Below are positions 5,621-11,591 of a stretch of DNA of 38,650 nt, piece by piece. The notes under the pieces were generated by a model. That model was not told where the DNA came from. It worked only from the letters and a program-made list of their open reading frames with translations, and searched no databases. Within the stretch, counting starts at the first letter, position 1. Every line of letters starts with the position of its first letter. Made by a program: the position numbers and the translations under genes. Origin of the DNA: [Limnothrix rosea] IAM M-220. GTDB lineage: Bacteria > Cyanobacteriota > Cyanobacteriia > Cyanobacteriales > MRBY01. The stretch covers positions 14,568-53,217 of the forward strand of contig NZ_MRBY01000026.1 of NCBI RefSeq assembly GCF_001904615.1. Reading direction: 5' to 3'.

Positions 5621-5672
5621 GATGCTTTCACATTACGTTTTTTTGCTCAAGCCACTGGTTTAAAACGAATTA

Positions 5673-5736
5673 TTTATTCAGCAATATATTTATTCAGCAA
5701 TATATTTATTCAGCAATATATTTATTCAGCAATATA
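5673..5736. repeat. Four perfect tandem copies of a 16-bp unit
   Basis: The unit TTTATTCAGCAATATA is repeated four times without mismatch at 5673, 5689, 5705 and 5721. It is AT-rich and lies in non-coding DNA between the tRNA-Pro terminator and the response-regulator gene. The identity of the units implies recent slippage, so copy number may vary between isolates. Confidence 0.97.
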
Positions 5737-5930
5737 ATGAATTGCGATTTATTTTATTGTCTAGCTCCATCGAAGACACCGAGCTTTAACCGACGACACA
5801 AAAGCGTCAACAAGGGACTTATTTTGTTGCTCGATTATTTTGAGAACAGCATTCGGACTAGTTTTATCGACCGATCAAACAATTTTTGCAACGTCTTAAA
5901 TCACCAAGAAAAGTCGCAAGCTATTTTTTT

Positions 5931-6052: not shown

Positions 6053-6859
6053 ATGACAAAAATTTTAATCATTGAAGACGAAGCACAAACTCGCAATGTC
6101 TTTCTTCGATGCTTAGAGATTGAAGGTTTTGATACCTGTGCCGCAAGTAATGCCCTAGATGGACTTGAGCTGGCCTTGCGTGAGCAACCGGATCTGATTG
6201 TTTGTGACATCCTTATGCCGGATCAAACGGGTTATTTTGTTTTATCTAAATTGCGGCGATCGCCCCAAACGGCCGCGATTCCTTTTATCTTTCTTACGGC
6301 AAAGGTCACCATGTCTGAATTGCGCCAAGGTATGCAATTGGGAGCCGATGACTATCTCACGAAACCCTGTACGGTTGAGCAATTTCTAGAGGCGATCGCC
6401 GTTCGCTTACAACGTCACCAAGATGTAATCATTAGCCAATCCAATCAAAACCCGAGTACGGGTATAGCATCCCAACCAGTTACGAACAGATTTGACGAAT
6501 CAGAAAGTCTAGATTTTTGCTTTCCCCATAATGAGACTTTAAACCCGATTTTCCGATTTATTGAGACCCATTACAATCAATCAGTAAAGCTCGATGAGAT
6601 TGCAAGGGAAGTGGGCTATTCTCCGGCCTATTTAACCAATTTAGTGCAAAAAGAAACCGGGCGAACTATTAAGCAATGGATTATTGCCCGACGAATGATG
6701 CAGGCACGAAAACTCCTTAAAAACACCACCCAAACAGTTAGAGAAATCGCCAACCATTGCGGTTACCCCGATGCCGGTTACTTCACGAGTCAATTTCGCA
6801 AGTTCCACGACGAAACGCCTTTAAAATGGCGCAAAACAGCAACAATTGCTACAAAATAA
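6053..6859 (+). CDS. Response regulator, REC domain + AraC-type HTH
   Basis: This 268-residue two-component response regulator has a receiver domain at about residues 3-120, with acidic pocket ED (9-10), phospho-acceptor Asp-52 in LIVCDILMPDQTG, Thr-82 in FIFLTAK and Lys-104 in DDYLTKP. After a 45-residue linker comes an AraC/XylS double helix-turn-helix (about 160-262), with the LDEIAREVGYSPAYLTNLVQKETG and VREIANHCGYPDAGYFTSQFRKF signatures. This architecture matches the cyanobacterial UirR-type REC-AraC regulators; the resemblance is of domain order, not proof of orthology. No histidine kinase is adjacent. It lies 265 bp upstream of the cyanate operon on the same strand, so it could regulate it, but nothing in the sequence proves that. 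The ATG start lacks a strong ribosome-binding site. Confidence 0.9.
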   Translation: MTKILIIEDEAQTRNVFLRCLEIEGFDTCAASNALDGLELALREQPDLIVCDILMPDQTGYFVLSKLRRSPQTAAIPFIFLTAKVTMSELRQGMQLGADDYLTKPCTVEQFLEAIAVRLQRHQDVIISQSNQNPSTGIASQPVTNRFDESESLDFCFPHNETLNPIFRFIETHYNQSVKLDEIAREVGYSPAYLTNLVQKETGRTIKQWIIARRMMQARKLLKNTTQTVREIANHCGYPDAGYFTSQFRKFHDETPLKWRKTATIATK

Positions 6860-7124: not shown

Positions 7125-8759
7125 ATGACTTTGATTTCAGCGCAGCAAACATTACGAGGTTTGGGGCAATCTAGTTTGAACCCTAGCCGCTCTAATCTAC
7201 AAACACTTTGTGCAACTTGTGGTGAGTATCATGCCGCTGGTGGTCATGCGGACTTTATGGCGACAATGCCTCAAGATCCCGTGGAACTTGTCGATGATTT
7301 CGTCAAGATGGGACTTTATCAGGAAAATCAATTGCAAGCCGCTGATGGCGTTAATGCTTACGAATTAAGAAAAGCGCTATTTCTCAAGCGTGTGGGTCGG
7401 GGTAGCCCCAAGCGAGAAAAGCTCATTTTGGATCTGTGTCAGCAGGCTGGTGGCCTTGATAATGCGATGGCTGCGGCGTTTGGCTCCAAAGCTGGTCTCT
7501 TTTTCTCGGATGCGATTCGTAATGGTCAGCAGACTCGCCGCGAATTTTTACGCAATATGGCAGTGGGTGCTGCACTCGTGAGTTTGGCGAGTTGTGGTCA
7601 AGATACGGCTCCTCCGGCTGGTGATGAGCCGGCAGATGTGGAAGTTGGCGACCTAGAAAAAACGGATTTGCAAATTGGTTTTATTCCGATTACTTGTGCA
7701 ACGCCCATTATTATGTCGGAGCCTCTGGGCTTCTATGAGAAGTATGGTTTTAATGCCAAGGTTGTGAAAATGCCGAGTTGGGGGGCGGTCAGAGATTCGG
7801 CGATCGCCGGCGAATTAGATGCCTATCACATGCTTGCCCCCATGCCCATCGCCATGACCCTCGGCCTTGGTTCCGGTGCCTTCGGTGTGAAGCTCGCTAG
7901 CATCGAAAACATTAACGGTCAAGCCATTACCGTTGCCGAACGTCACAAAGGCAAAGTTAATGGCCCCGCTGACTTTAAAGGCTTCACCATCGGCGTGCCA
8001 TTCCCCTACTCCATGCACAATCTCCTATTGCGGTATTACCTCGCCACAGGCGGTATCGATCCCGACGTGGATGTGCAAATTCGTCCCGTTCCCCCACCAG
8101 ATAGCATTGCCCAGCTCATCGCCGGTGATATTGACGCATATCTCATGCCCGATCCCTTTAACCAACGCGCAGTATACGAAGGGGCAGGCTTTATCCATAT
8201 GCTCACTAAGGAATTGTGGCCGGGTCATCCCTGTTGTGCCTTTGCAGCCAGCGACCAGTGGATTGACGCAAACCCCAATACATTCCGCGCTCTTAATAAA
8301 TCCATTATTGAAGCAGCAGCCTACGCCCAAGTGCCAGAGAACCGCCCAGAGATTGCCAAGGCGATTTCCGAGCGGGCATTCCTCAACCAACCCGTCGAAG
8401 TTGTGGAAGCAGTGCTTACTGGAAAATTTGACGATGGTAACGGTAATACCCTCGATATTCCCGACCGAATTGGGTTTGATCCCTATCCTTGGCAGAGTTT
8501 TGCGAACTGGATTTCGTCTCAGCTCGTGCGTTGGGATCTCCAAGGTGATGATCTTGCGCCCACGATTATTCCAGAGAAAGGTTACGACACCGTTGGCACA
8601 GATGTCTTCCTCACCGACTTAGCACGGGAATTAGCCACAGAACTGGGTCTAGAAGCTCCAGAGGAAATCTATCGGGAAGAAACCCTCAAGTTTGACACTT
8701 TTGATCCCGCTGACCCCGCTGCCTATGTGCAACAGCAAATTGATGAATATGGCGTTTAA
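7125..8759 (+). CDS. cynA: Cyanate ABC transporter substrate-binding lipoprotein CynA with N-terminal extension
   Basis: This 544-residue CmpA/NrtA/CynA-family binding protein captures cyanate in the periplasm for the CynBD transporter. The binding domain runs from about 180 (LQIGFIPITCATPIIMSEPLGFYEKYGF) to the end. The unusual part is in front. A twin-arginine motif TRREFLRN at 137-144, a hydrophobic stretch and a lipobox LASC (Cys-157) form a normal Tat lipoprotein signal, but about 130 residues precede it. That extension contains CATCGEYH (CxxC, residues 29-32) and a helical stretch. An internal ATG at residue 115 would give a conventional length. No good ribosome-binding site marks either start, and the frame is fully open from 7125, so the long form is annotated. 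It is the first gene of the cyn operon, 19 bp before cynB. Confidence 0.85.
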   Translation: MTLISAQQTLRGLGQSSLNPSRSNLQTLCATCGEYHAAGGHADFMATMPQDPVELVDDFVKMGLYQENQLQAADGVNAYELRKALFLKRVGRGSPKREKLILDLCQQAGGLDNAMAAAFGSKAGLFFSDAIRNGQQTRREFLRNMAVGAALVSLASCGQDTAPPAGDEPADVEVGDLEKTDLQIGFIPITCATPIIMSEPLGFYEKYGFNAKVVKMPSWGAVRDSAIAGELDAYHMLAPMPIAMTLGLGSGAFGVKLASIENINGQAITVAERHKGKVNGPADFKGFTIGVPFPYSMHNLLLRYYLATGGIDPDVDVQIRPVPPPDSIAQLIAGDIDAYLMPDPFNQRAVYEGAGFIHMLTKELWPGHPCCAFAASDQWIDANPNTFRALNKSIIEAAAYAQVPENRPEIAKAISERAFLNQPVEVVEAVLTGKFDDGNGNTLDIPDRIGFDPYPWQSFANWISSQLVRWDLQGDDLAPTIIPEKGYDTVGTDVFLTDLARELATELGLEAPEEIYREETLKFDTFDPADPAAYVQQQIDEYGV

Positions 8760-8778: not shown

Positions 8779-9618
8779 ATGGCAGTCACTAGTAAACGAC
8801 TACCAAAATCAGCCTACGCCCGACCGAAAGAATCCCTTTGGCAAAACGAAAATTTTCTGGCATTTTTGCTATTTCTCGGTGCGCTGATTACCTTTCTCAC
8901 CGTCTGGGAAATCGGCGCTCGCATGGAGCTTCTCGCCAAGGGGATGCCTACTGCTTCTAAAACCCTTGAGGAATTGTGGTGGTGGACGACCCACCCCTTT
9001 TTCGACAATGGCCCTAATGACTTGGGGATTGGGTGGAATTTACTGATTAGTCTCCGGCGGGTGGCGATCGGCTATATTGCAGCTTCTGTGGTCGCTGTCC
9101 CCCTCGGAATTTTAATCGGCATTTCTCCCATCGCCAGAAAAGGTTTCAATCCTTTTATCCAGCTGCTGAAGCCCGTTTCTCCCTTGGCTTGGCTACCCCT
9201 CGGTCTCTATATCCTGCGCGATTCGGAGCAGACTGGTGTCTTTATCATCTTCATTTCTAGTATCTGGCCGACATTAATTAATACCTCCTTTGGTGTTGCG
9301 AATGTCAGTAAAGAATATTTGGACGTGACAAAAACCCTTGGTGCTTCTCGCTTCCGAACTATTTTTAAGGTAATTATTCCAGCTGCCCTGCCCAACATTT
9401 TGTCGGGTCTCAGGATCAGTATGGGGATTGCTTGGCTGGTGATTGTCGCGGCAGAAATGCTGTTGGGAACGGGGCTCGGCTATTTCATTTGGAATGAGTG
9501 GAATAACTTATATATTCCCAATATTCTGGTGGCGATTTTTATCATCGGTTTGGTCGGTTTAATTCTAGATAGTTGCTTTGCGGCTGTCGAAAAGTTTGTT
9601 GCATTTGGTCGAAAATAA
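8779..9618 (+). CDS. cynB: Cyanate ABC transporter permease CynB
   Basis: This 279-residue inner-membrane permease is of the NrtB/SsuC (BPD_transp_1) family. It has six predicted transmembrane helices, with the first at about residues 27-45. The EAA-type loop that contacts the ATPase is visible as TKTLGASRFRTIFKVIIPAALPNILSGLR (about 180-208). It works with CynA and CynD in ATP-driven uptake of cyanate. A ribosome-binding site, AGGAG, lies 8-10 bases before the ATG. The stop codon TAA overlaps the cynD ATG (TAATG), indicating translational coupling. Cyanate rather than nitrate or bicarbonate is inferred from cynS downstream; the permease sequence alone does not settle the substrate. Confidence 0.9.
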   Translation: MAVTSKRLPKSAYARPKESLWQNENFLAFLLFLGALITFLTVWEIGARMELLAKGMPTASKTLEELWWWTTHPFFDNGPNDLGIGWNLLISLRRVAIGYIAASVVAVPLGILIGISPIARKGFNPFIQLLKPVSPLAWLPLGLYILRDSEQTGVFIIFISSIWPTLINTSFGVANVSKEYLDVTKTLGASRFRTIFKVIIPAALPNILSGLRISMGIAWLVIVAAEMLLGTGLGYFIWNEWNNLYIPNILVAIFIIGLVGLILDSCFAAVEKFVAFGRK

Positions 9619-10511
9619 TGAGTGTTACGCCCGTGAATCACGCAACTCCCCTCACACCGGAAGATACTTTTTCTGATACGGCTCAACTTTCGATTCGTAA
9701 TGTAACTAAGGTCTTCCACGGTAAACAAAGTTTATTAGACAAGGTCACTGGTAAAAAAACGAAGGATTTTGTGGCGATCGAGGATATTAGTCTTGATATC
9801 GAACCGAATACCTTTGTTTCGATTATTGGCCCTTCTGGCTGTGGTAAGTCTACTTTGCTCGATATGATCGCAGGTCTCTCGCCTGTTACCTCTGGTGAAA
9901 TTCGCCTGAATGGTATGCCAATCACTGGGCCGGGGCCAGACCGGGGCATGGTGTTCCAGAGTTATGCGCTGATGCCTTGGATGACTGTTGAAGAAAATCT
10001 TTATTTTGCGGTGGAAACGGTTTATCCGGATATGCCGAAAAAGCAAATCCAACGCACGATTAAAGAGCATATTCAGTTAGTCGGTTTGACTGGTGCGGAG
10101 AAAAAGCATCCCCACGAGATTTCTGGTGGGATGAAACAGCGGGTGGGTATTGCCCGTGCTCTGGCGATTAATCCACAAATGTTGTTGATGGATGAGCCGT
10201 TTGGGGCATTGGATGCGTTAACTCGTGGTTTTTTGCAGGATGAGATTGAACGGATCTGGGAGCGGGAACGGAAAACGGTAATTATGATCACCCATAGTAT
10301 TGATGAAGCGCTGCTTTTATCTGATCGGATTATTATGATGACCCGTGGTCCTGCGGCTGGTGTGGATGAGATTTTAGATGTGCCTTTTCCTCGCCCGCGT
10401 AATCGTGAGGAGTTGGATCAGTATCCGGCTTACCATGATCTGAAGGTGGAGATGGAGCGTCATTTATCTCGCGAAACGCGGGCTGTTGAGGCGGCGAGAA
10501 TTACCCGCTAA
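9618..10511 (+). CDS. cynD: Cyanate ABC transporter ATP-binding protein CynD
   Basis: This 297-residue ABC ATPase of the nitrate/sulfonate/taurine class energises CynB. Walker A is GPSGCGKST, the Q-loop is in VFQSYALMPW, the signature is ISGGMKQR, Walker B is LLMDEPFGALD and the switch His is in MITHSIDEAL. There is an N-terminal leader of about 30 residues before the domain and a C-terminal tail of the NrtD type. The frame is open upstream, but the ATG at 9618, overlapping the cynB stop (TAATG), gives the expected N-terminus; the longer frame would add a Cys-rich stretch that is simply out-of-frame cynB. It is a cytoplasmic membrane-associated subunit and the third gene of the operon, followed by cynS after 54 bp. 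Confidence 0.92.
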   Translation: MSVTPVNHATPLTPEDTFSDTAQLSIRNVTKVFHGKQSLLDKVTGKKTKDFVAIEDISLDIEPNTFVSIIGPSGCGKSTLLDMIAGLSPVTSGEIRLNGMPITGPGPDRGMVFQSYALMPWMTVEENLYFAVETVYPDMPKKQIQRTIKEHIQLVGLTGAEKKHPHEISGGMKQRVGIARALAINPQMLLMDEPFGALDALTRGFLQDEIERIWERERKTVIMITHSIDEALLLSDRIIMMTRGPAAGVDEILDVPFPRPRNREELDQYPAYHDLKVEMERHLSRETRAVEAARITR

Positions 10512-10565: not shown

Positions 10566-11012
10566 ATGATGGCAATTTCTGATGTAACGGAAAAGCTTTT
10601 GGCGGCAAAGAAGGCGGCTGGTGTTTCTTTTGCGGATTTGGAGGGGAAAGTGGGCCGTGATGAGGTGTGGATTGCGTCTGTTTTTTATCGTCAAGCGAGT
10701 GCTTCTGTGGAGGAGGCGACGAAGATTGTTGAGGCGATCGCCGCTGATGAGTCTTTGATTGAGCCTTTGACGGAATGTCCGGTGAAGGGGGGTTTAGATC
10801 CTTTGGTTCCGACTGATCCGCTCATCTACCGTTTTTATGAAATCATGCAGGTTTATGGGATGCCTGTGAAGGCGGTTGTCCATGAGAAGTTTGGGGACGG
10901 CATTATGAGTGCGATTGATTTTTCGATTGATGTGGAACGCGAAGAAGATCCGAAGGGCGATCGCGTGAAGGTTATTATGTGCGGTAAGTTCTTGCCCTAC
11001 AAGAAATGGTAA
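10566..11012 (+). CDS. cynS: Cyanate hydratase (cyanase)
   Basis: This 148-residue enzyme catalyses bicarbonate-dependent decomposition of cyanate to carbon dioxide and ammonia (via carbamate), supplying nitrogen and detoxifying cyanate. It is a cytoplasmic homodecamer. The N-terminal helix-turn-helix-like domain has the family motif [18 protein letters not shown]. The catalytic triad Arg-89, Glu-92 and Ser-115 is found in [11 protein letters not shown] and GIMSAIDF, equivalent to E. coli Arg96, Glu99 and Ser122. Length is near that of E. coli cyanase (156). Two adjacent ATGs exist (10566 and 10569), with GAGGA 5 or 8 bases upstream; either may be used. It is linked to the transporter genes, the usual cyanobacterial cynABDS order. 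Confidence 0.96.
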
Positions 11013-11114: not shown

Positions 11115-11591
11115 ATGACTACAACGTCGAAAAAGTTAGTGCCGCCTTTTGATCGGGAGACGGCGATCGCCAAAGTACGGATGGCTGAGAATGCTTGGAA
11201 TGGTCGCAACCCGGATAGGGTTTGTCTAGCCTACACCGAGGATAGTTTCTGGCGGAATCGGGCGGAAGTTTTTCAGGGTCGGGAAAATATTCGTGAGTTT
11301 CTGCGCCGTAAATGGGACAAAGAATTGAACTATCGTCTAGTAAAAGAACTGTGGGTCTACGGCGATGACCGGATTGCGGTGCGGTTTCAATATGAATGGC
11401 AGGATGATGCGGGGCAATGGTATCGCGCCTATGGTAATGAAAATTGGGAATTTGACGCAGCGGGTTTGATGCGCCGTCGGGAAGCCAGTATTAATGACAA
11501 ACCGATTGCTGCATCTGAGCGACGTTTTTTCTGGGATGCACCCGGCGATCGCCCCTTAGATCATCCCGGTTTAATTGATTCTCCCGAATAA
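11115..11591 (+). CDS. DUF1348 / NTF2-like protein at end of cyanate operon
   Basis: This 158-residue cytoplasmic protein is of the DUF1348 family, part of the NTF2/SnoaL-like fold. Family landmarks are [18 protein letters not shown] near the start, a [14 protein letters not shown] strand, REFLRRKW, and a C-terminal [11 protein letters not shown] and [10 protein letters not shown] segment. Biochemical function is unknown to me; the fold often makes small cavities that bind or isomerise substrates. It starts 102 bp after cynS on the same strand with no terminator between, and a terminator follows it, so it is probably the fifth gene of the cyn operon. A role connected with cyanate or its products is inferred only from position. 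GAGG lies about 12 bases before the ATG. Confidence 0.85.

Follow-up and report, generated by a model that had tools for sequence, protein, structure and literature searches.

Tat signals are commonly viewed as short tags for TatC, their specificity being provided by separate chaperones. In Salmonella TtrA, transport is reportedly controlled by a regulatory domain that lies within the twin-arginine signal peptide. TtrA-like Tat precursors with regulated or enlarged n-regions share with CynA, the protein analysed here, the presence of extra sequence ahead of the twin arginine (RR) and a potential export gate, but in CynA the leader forms a conserved domain, some 110 residues long, that carries a four-ligand Cys/His set, it is not found in a cofactor-containing redox enzyme, and we know of no chaperone for it. 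The extended signal peptide region of autotransporters, in which no Cys/His site is known to us, can also be compared to the CynA leader. It is a long extension as in CynA, but it belongs to the Sec pathway and has a doubled n/h layout (PMC2805444, in its available part). The actinobacterial Rieske protein and further Sec/Tat proteins whose Tat signal is internal carry the RR far from the N-terminus, as CynA does, their pre-RR part being made of transmembrane helices (accessible sections of PMC5449189), unlike the CynA leader, in which none of the 19-residue windows starting at residues 1-117 has a mean hydropathy above 0.85. As for length, Tat signals are about 30 residues long (available text of PMC6708511), and the 46-residue Tat signal of BKC-1 has been termed unusually long (excerpt of PMC8262980). 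The mature part of CynA is like that of the NrtA/CmpA proteins (nitrate, bicarbonate), which, among those examined, also have an N-terminal Tat signal, except for one that has no RR (L159), but the NrtA/CmpA-type proteins that we examined do not carry the Cys/His leader domain.

The locus lies in a 4.07 Mb cyanobacterial genome, and we call "the window" the whole stretch of DNA that was analysed, 38,650 nucleotides long. The earlier note on this DNA had described the cynA frame as open from position 7125, and we indeed find an ATG at 7125 and a stop at 8759; upstream of this ATG, the frame continues for four further codons up to an in-frame stop (548-codon frame, ATG at index 4). The features are the following:

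7125-8759, + strand: cynA, complete frame of 544 aa, made of an extension, then a Tat lipoprotein signal, then a cyanate-type substrate-binding protein
7125-7532, + strand: N-terminal extension, residues 1-136 (extension search, 100-row alignment, mature-part search, dN/dS)
7125-7190, + strand: weakly conserved tail, residues 1-22 (mean entropy 2.45 bits, dN/dS 0.270)
7209-7247, + strand: four-ligand Cys/His set C29-x2-C32-x3-H36-x4-H41, proposed zinc-knuckle-like metal site (four ligands in 99 of 100 relatives)
7269-7529, + strand: conserved helical core, residues 49-135, including the AGG..NA.AAAFG....FF block (alignment, dN/dS, models)
7467-7469, + strand: Met115 codon, candidate internal start of the earlier note (Phe in 95 of 100 relatives)
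7533-7592, + strand: Tat signal, TRREFL (RR138-139 at 7536-7541) and h-region (R138, R139 and F141 invariant in 100 of 100)
7593-7595, + strand: Cys157 of the lipobox, where signal peptidase II is predicted to cut (Cys at this position in 86 of 100, at 156-158 in 97 of 100)
7593-8756, + strand: mature substrate-binding protein, NrtA/CmpA family (PF13379 and PDB sequence matches)
8779-9618, + strand: cynB, permease (relatives adjoin cynA in 78 of 80 loci, the best 80 of 117)
9618-10511, + strand: cynD, ATPase (relatives adjoin cynA in 78 of 80 loci, the best 80 of 117)
10566-11012, + strand: cynS, cyanase, PF02560 at E 2.5e-36 (relatives in 67 of 80 loci, the best 80 of 117)

The gene order is thus that of CynABD with cyanase, with cynB, cynD and cynS beside cynA; several of the 80 loci stop at contig ends. 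The mature part of CynA has an NMT1_2-type periplasmic-binding fold (PF13379 over residues 176-415, E 1.6e-76, 257.9 bits for a cut-off of 24.7), and its PDB sequence matches include CmpA 2i48 and NrtA 2g29. The operon, together with the branch on which the protein falls, points to CynA as a putative cyanate binder.

Other genes can be found in the vicinity. An NTF2-like gene (window 11115-11591) follows cynS and has matches in 38 of the 80 cyanobacterial loci (best 80 of 117), and two cyn clusters of proteobacteria have a gene annotated as "nuclear transport factor 2 family protein". Directly upstream of cynA, the gene at window 6053-6859, whose product we take to be a response-regulator receiver with an AraC-type DNA-binding half, has matches near cynA in 55 of the 80 loci (best 80 of 117), five of them on the opposite strand. 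A response regulator is also annotated beside cynA in Pseudanabaena, and three proteobacterial loci have a divergent sigma-54 regulator in its place. The intergenic stretch at window 5670-5740 contains a short tandem repeat with a unit like TTATTCAGCAATATAT.

The CynA extension is a translated, conserved and unclassified protein domain. When its 135 residues alone are used as a query, they find 31 of 386 cyanobacterial genomes at E<=0.01, the closest being two genomes of the same genus (72% and 71% over the extension); the closest named record, among the best 80 of 117, is that of Picosynechococcus sp. PCC 7117 (89%). Among these, the match of G288 belongs to a frameshifted remnant, that of G297 (E 0.009) is weak and probably due to chance, and so, probably, is that of G383 (locus L031, E 7e-4), because of its five stops and since the profile found it again neither at that place nor in a larger stretch (L178). 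The mature part alone gives a set of CynA places chosen independently of the extension. At E<=1e-90, it finds 29 places in 28 of the 386 genomes, all with frames of at least 531 aa, one genome (G170) having two places on different contigs, and an extension match lies at the same place in 29 of the 29. This count covers the mature relatives at that threshold, the weakest of which has an E-value of 3.9e-160, while the next relative in the window's own genome is at 8e-52. The alignment of orthologues that the earlier note had proposed as a check therefore finds the extension conserved. The named loci cannot show an absence of the extension, since two of the six query patterns used to collect them came from the extension and the best 80 of 117 were kept, and the start positions are no evidence either, because the start chosen by the script is late in some rows (such as L089).

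Selection was measured as dN/dS, pooled over 19 close pairs in which no sequence is used twice. The values are 0.270 for residues 1-22, 0.097 for residues 23-48, 0.054 for residues 49-135, 0.044 for the Tat signal, 0.102 for the linker that follows it (residues 161-182) and 0.046 for the mature part, so that residues 49-135 are about as constrained as the mature protein. Among 100 distinct sequences (110 loci with a frame, minus L002, L028, L098, L102 and L107, and minus five exact duplicates), P52, D58, L85, L104, A108, G109, G110, A117, A118, F119, G120, F126 and F127 are invariant. The earlier note had considered an untranslated leader, translation starting at residue 115; the upstream frame would then be open by chance or non-functional. 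The weak conservation of residues 1-22 agrees with this, but residues 23-135 are under strong purifying selection, the extension is kept at all the places just described, and position 115 is a Phe in 95 of 100 relatives. Neutral substitution, which the note held would speak against a real domain, is not what we observe, since residues 1-115 as a whole have a dN/dS of 0.091. The identity of position 115 and this purifying dN/dS lead us to reject the untranslated leader, to which we leave next to no chance.

We then come to the question of whether such a domain is known elsewhere. Among 57 leader members, no convincing match was found in Pfam (best E 0.015) or in NCBIfam (best E 0.0049, in 2 of 57), and the zinc-family models gave chance-level scores only (Zn_Ribbon_TF in 1 of 57, E 0.1); the PDB sequences gave nothing convincing for the leader either (best E 0.18). 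Two AlphaFold2 models of the leader, of modest confidence (pLDDT 72.5 and 70.5, pTM 0.45 and 0.41), are helical, the second containing in addition two single bridge residues. With these models, Foldseek found no match at E<=0.001, and the best row of a further fold comparison (Z 4.1 over 60 residues) is within the range counted as common, but the models being uncertain, a missing fold match says little.

A leader profile run against the 386 genomes gives matches in 41 of them at E<=0.1. The strong ones are the CynA places and the remnant of one genome, G288, and 13 others are weak (E 0.002-0.09 for one genome). Three of these 13 were inspected and look like chance helical matches: L174 (1261 aa) and L175 (1254 aa), which are presumably magnesium chelatase H, and L176, presumably GroEL. 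On the window, the 80 named loci and 13 plasmid loci, the profile additionally matches a second copy of CynA in six loci and both halves of the frameshifted L102 gene. The earlier note had also suggested a separate function fused to the transporter, and as a domain known elsewhere this finds no backing in the profile, Pfam, NCBIfam or PDB results. Taken together, the ordinary readings (a misannotated start, a chance frame, a known fused domain) fail or lack support in the sequence comparisons that we made. The available parts of articles on cyanate and on cyanobacterial uptake (PMC6627978, PMC8786288, PMC5333837) do not mention the leader domain, and a search on cyanate and Tat returned no title on such a leader among the matches listed, within a scope that mostly leaves aside the subscription literature.

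Some of these loci have features of their own. In G288 (L028/L177), cynA is decayed, the extension and the Tat signal being spread over three frames, and the mature part was not found. The cynA gene of a MAG (L102, 4001-5571) has its extension and its mature part in different frames, through an assembly error or a recent frameshift. A second CynA-like gene, 57-62% identical to the CynA of the window, lies within a few kb in L043, L046, L049, L055, L060 and L092; these copies carry the extension as far as it is visible, those of L043, L046, L049 and L055 missing the first 45-63 residues at the ends of the loci.

The extension also contains a Cys/His set. The earlier note had pointed to a CxxC in the segment CATCGEYH, and this segment is indeed found at residues 29-36, but the CxxC is not a constant and is part of a four-ligand set, C-AT-C-GEY-H-AAGG-H in the window, of which the note had overlooked the fourth ligand, H41, as well as the ligand shifts and the Cys/His swaps among relatives. 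When the alignment is anchored on the invariant Pro52, 99 of 100 relatives have four short-spaced Cys/His ligands, as expected for a zinc-knuckle-like site, and fall into three geometries: C-x2-C-x3-H-x4-H (82), C-x-C-x3-H-x4-H (6) and C-x-C-x2-C-x6-8-H (11, including the four named Prochlorococcus rows L106, L108, L109 and L110). The sole exception, L105, has three ligands. A constant number of ligands, swaps between His and Cys and a one-residue shift of a Cys are what metal coordination produces, and the set suggests, at the level of sequence, a zinc-knuckle-like metal site, most likely for Zn2+. The zinc knuckle pattern is C-x2-C-x4-H-x4-C. Its ligand types are those of the CynA leader, whose final ligand is a His or a Cys among relatives, and its spacing is near-identical, but the CynA site, unlike the zinc knuckle, is not in a nucleic-acid-binding protein.

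The two cysteines could also be thought of as a thiol redox switch, in which a cytoplasmic disulfide between C29 and C32 would gate export according to the light or dark redox state of the cell. The organism is phototrophic, and the C-x2-C exists in the 82 sequences of the first geometry as well as, displaced by one position, within the C-x-C-x2-C of the 11 that have the third. It is, however, absent in the six cyanobacterial sequences that have a CxC, and in 10 of the 12 proteobacterial sequences presented below (by eye), 99 of 100 retain two further Cys/His ligands for which a dithiol has no use, and redox proteomics names CynS, not CynA (available portion of PMC4080843). We consider such a switch very unlikely.

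To look beyond cyanobacteria, we examined 19 of the 484 plasmid records with a match to CynA. A single one comes from a cyanobacterium (Pseudanabaena, L114) and carries the long form, and 12 are proteobacterial, all on the cyanate branch. In these 12, the open frame before the RR contains a CxC (by eye), as in CSCGAHASQAAH (Methylobacterium), CACGQHASQSEH (Caballeronia), CRCGKHVNQAEC (Moraxella), CACGSTHGDDEEC (Variovorax) or CGCHSC (SC52). Four of them (L117, L122, L123, L160) have a Cys at the expected place of the last His, and four (L112, L118, L119, L154) have fewer than four close ligands, both by eye. The annotated start includes the motif in 8 of the 12, about 49-81 residues before the RR, it is downstream of the motif in L118 (Acetobacter) and L154 (Bradyrhizobium barranii), and the records of L116 and L122 have no annotation. 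The other six plasmid records are of the NrtA/CmpA type or more distant, and none has such an extension. Neither does the relative from the window's own genome (L162, frame MNQFSRR, from an unannotated genome), which has, like L121, L155, L156, L157 and L158, 5-11 residues before the RR from the annotated or first evident start (L156 and L158 being without annotation).

A tree was built from 41 mature domains, namely 22 of the 100 cyanobacterial sequences, L114, the 12 proteobacterial ones and six without extension, L163 and L159 being left out. The 35 extension-bearing rows form one side of a branch with a support of 100/100, and the presence of the extension is explained by one change in 100% of 200 bootstrap trees. 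Among the proteins examined, the extension is thus restricted to the cyanate-type branch. In part of the proteobacterial branch, the neighbours are genes of the nitrilase-like, aldoxime dehydratase or molybdopterin oxidoreductase type and no cynS was seen in the stretch, which means that the extension follows the branch and not strictly the cyanase. An extension-bearing subfamily (L119, L122, L123, L154, L160) is present in Bradyrhizobium, Bosea and Variovorax; three of its five members adjoin genes of these three kinds, and its substrate may be other than cyanate.

The relationship between the long and the short extensions is less clear. An hhalign comparison of the long profile (A2, 57 rows) with the short one (A3, 9 of the 12 proteobacterial extensions, L118, L154 and L160 being left out) aligns 33 columns around the Cys motif with a probability of 10% and an E-value of 0.003, a match too weak to establish a shared origin, and the Acetobacter extension (L118) does not match the short-form profile. 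Judging from these sequences, either an old core with the Cys motif would have been enlarged by cyanobacteria or the likeness would be a convergence.

The extension is followed by a normal Tat lipoprotein signal, internal to the protein as the earlier note had stated, whose motifs (RR138-139 and Cys157) are kept across relatives. An S/T-R-R-x-F-L motif precedes a hydrophobic h-region, and a lipobox Cys stands at its end. As for the curated models, TIGR01409 scores 13.1 bits on the CynA of the window for a cut-off of 16.7, and PF10518 reaches E<=1 in 14 of 57 relatives, its best value being 1.3e-4. In 100 relatives, the RR is preceded by 107-157 residues (median 138, with the start chosen by the script), so the unusual length that the note had ascribed to the n-region is apparent when compared to whole Tat signals of about 30 residues (PMC6708511, part available). 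The RR is bound by TatC on its cytoplasmic face, with the signal inserted in the form of a hairpin (accessible text of PMC7317946), so a domain located before the RR should stay in the cytoplasm, and a lipobox Cys at 156-158 in 97 of 100 relatives implies that the mature protein should be cut free.

Cleavage might nevertheless not take place. The h-region would then stay in the membrane as an uncleaved signal anchor linking the mature CynA outside to the cytoplasmic domain, in line with the precedents of Rieske and TtrA (accessible sections of PMC5449189) and with the three relatives that have no lipobox Cys (L017, L019 and L020). We find this improbable, as a lipobox Cys in the 97 others, followed by a variable linker (mean entropy of 2.01 bits over residues 161-182), is the usual layout of a cleaved lipoprotein. 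The reading of the leader as a cytoplasmic domain removed on export and that of a folding or quality-control element, both raised by the earlier note, are compatible with each other, and both survive these observations, given an intact Tat signal and a lipobox Cys within one residue of 157.

If the leader is cytoplasmic and cleaved off, evolution keeps, under a constraint like that of the mature part, a domain that is absent from the final transporter. Such a domain can act on the folding or export of the precursor, or afterwards as a separate cytoplasmic fragment. Our tentative preference goes to the former, and it could well be, although we stop short of holding it probable, that the leader controls the export or assembly of CynA and is removed with the signal peptide. 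We infer its metal binding, topology and cleavage from sequence, and its control function from its position. The leader would comprise the four-ligand Cys/His site, most likely loaded with Zn2+, then a small helical domain directly before the Tat lipoprotein signal. The CynA preprotein would fold in the cytoplasm, and the leader would withhold or present the RR until it has folded and taken up its metal, or until it has encountered a partner. The RR would then dock on TatC and the h-region insert as a hairpin, its n-side remaining cytoplasmic, so that the leader would never cross the membrane. Finally, the lipoprotein signal peptidase would cut before Cys157, yielding the mature lipoprotein outside and leaving on the cytoplasmic side a fragment of about 156 residues made of the leader and the signal peptide. 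We favor export control because the most constrained block (residues 108-127) sits 11-30 residues before the RR, and because a metal-like site is present and the loss of a cofactor can block Tat export: blocking FeS binding stopped that of NrfC and NapG (PMC6708511, part available).

The cleaved fragment, anchored in the membrane, could instead bind CynD, CynB or CynS and regulate or couple the transporter, taking the place of the cytoplasmic regulatory domain of NrtC/CmpC. Indeed, CynABD has a single short ATPase (window 9618-10511), the mature CynA matches, in solved structures, the regulatory C-terminus, similar to an SBP, of CmpC and nitrate-transport ATP-binding proteins, the leader is encoded in one operon with cynB, cynD and cynS, and the strength of its constraint suits a binding surface. 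Signal peptide fragments are, however, usually degraded, which argues against a job after cleavage, and we regard this role as rather unlikely.

Export control by the leader could also take a more specific form, that of an export licence responsive to cyanate or metal. Isocyanic acid inside the cell would carbamoylate the Cys/His site of newly made CynA, or cyanate would coordinate it, and the altered fold of the leader would decide whether the RR engages TatC. The active form of cyanate reacts with the -NH2 and -SH groups of proteins (available text of PMC3753499), and it is this reactivity that makes a built-in brake on the number of importers plausible, as a speculation, for cyanate-type proteins and not for nitrate-type ones. 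We give this version only a slender chance. If true, it would mean that the number of importers is set by a post-translational feedback from a toxic substrate, through a substrate-sensing pro-domain ahead of a Tat signal, which is undescribed for ABC importers in the literature covered.

In CynA, an entire conserved domain, probably with a metal site, precedes the Tat tag, and it does so in one branch of a widespread transporter family. This leader spans cyanobacteria from Prochlorococcus to filamentous ones, with a shorter Cys-bearing counterpart in proteobacteria, and it is easily overlooked because PF13379 matches only past the signal. It raises the question of whether a built-in cytoplasmic pre-domain times the export of a folded protein, and whether cyanate, metal or nitrogen status acts through it. 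That a conserved domain ahead of the signal should stay in the cell when the protein is exported suggests that the building of this transporter is subject to a control that has so far gone unrecognised.
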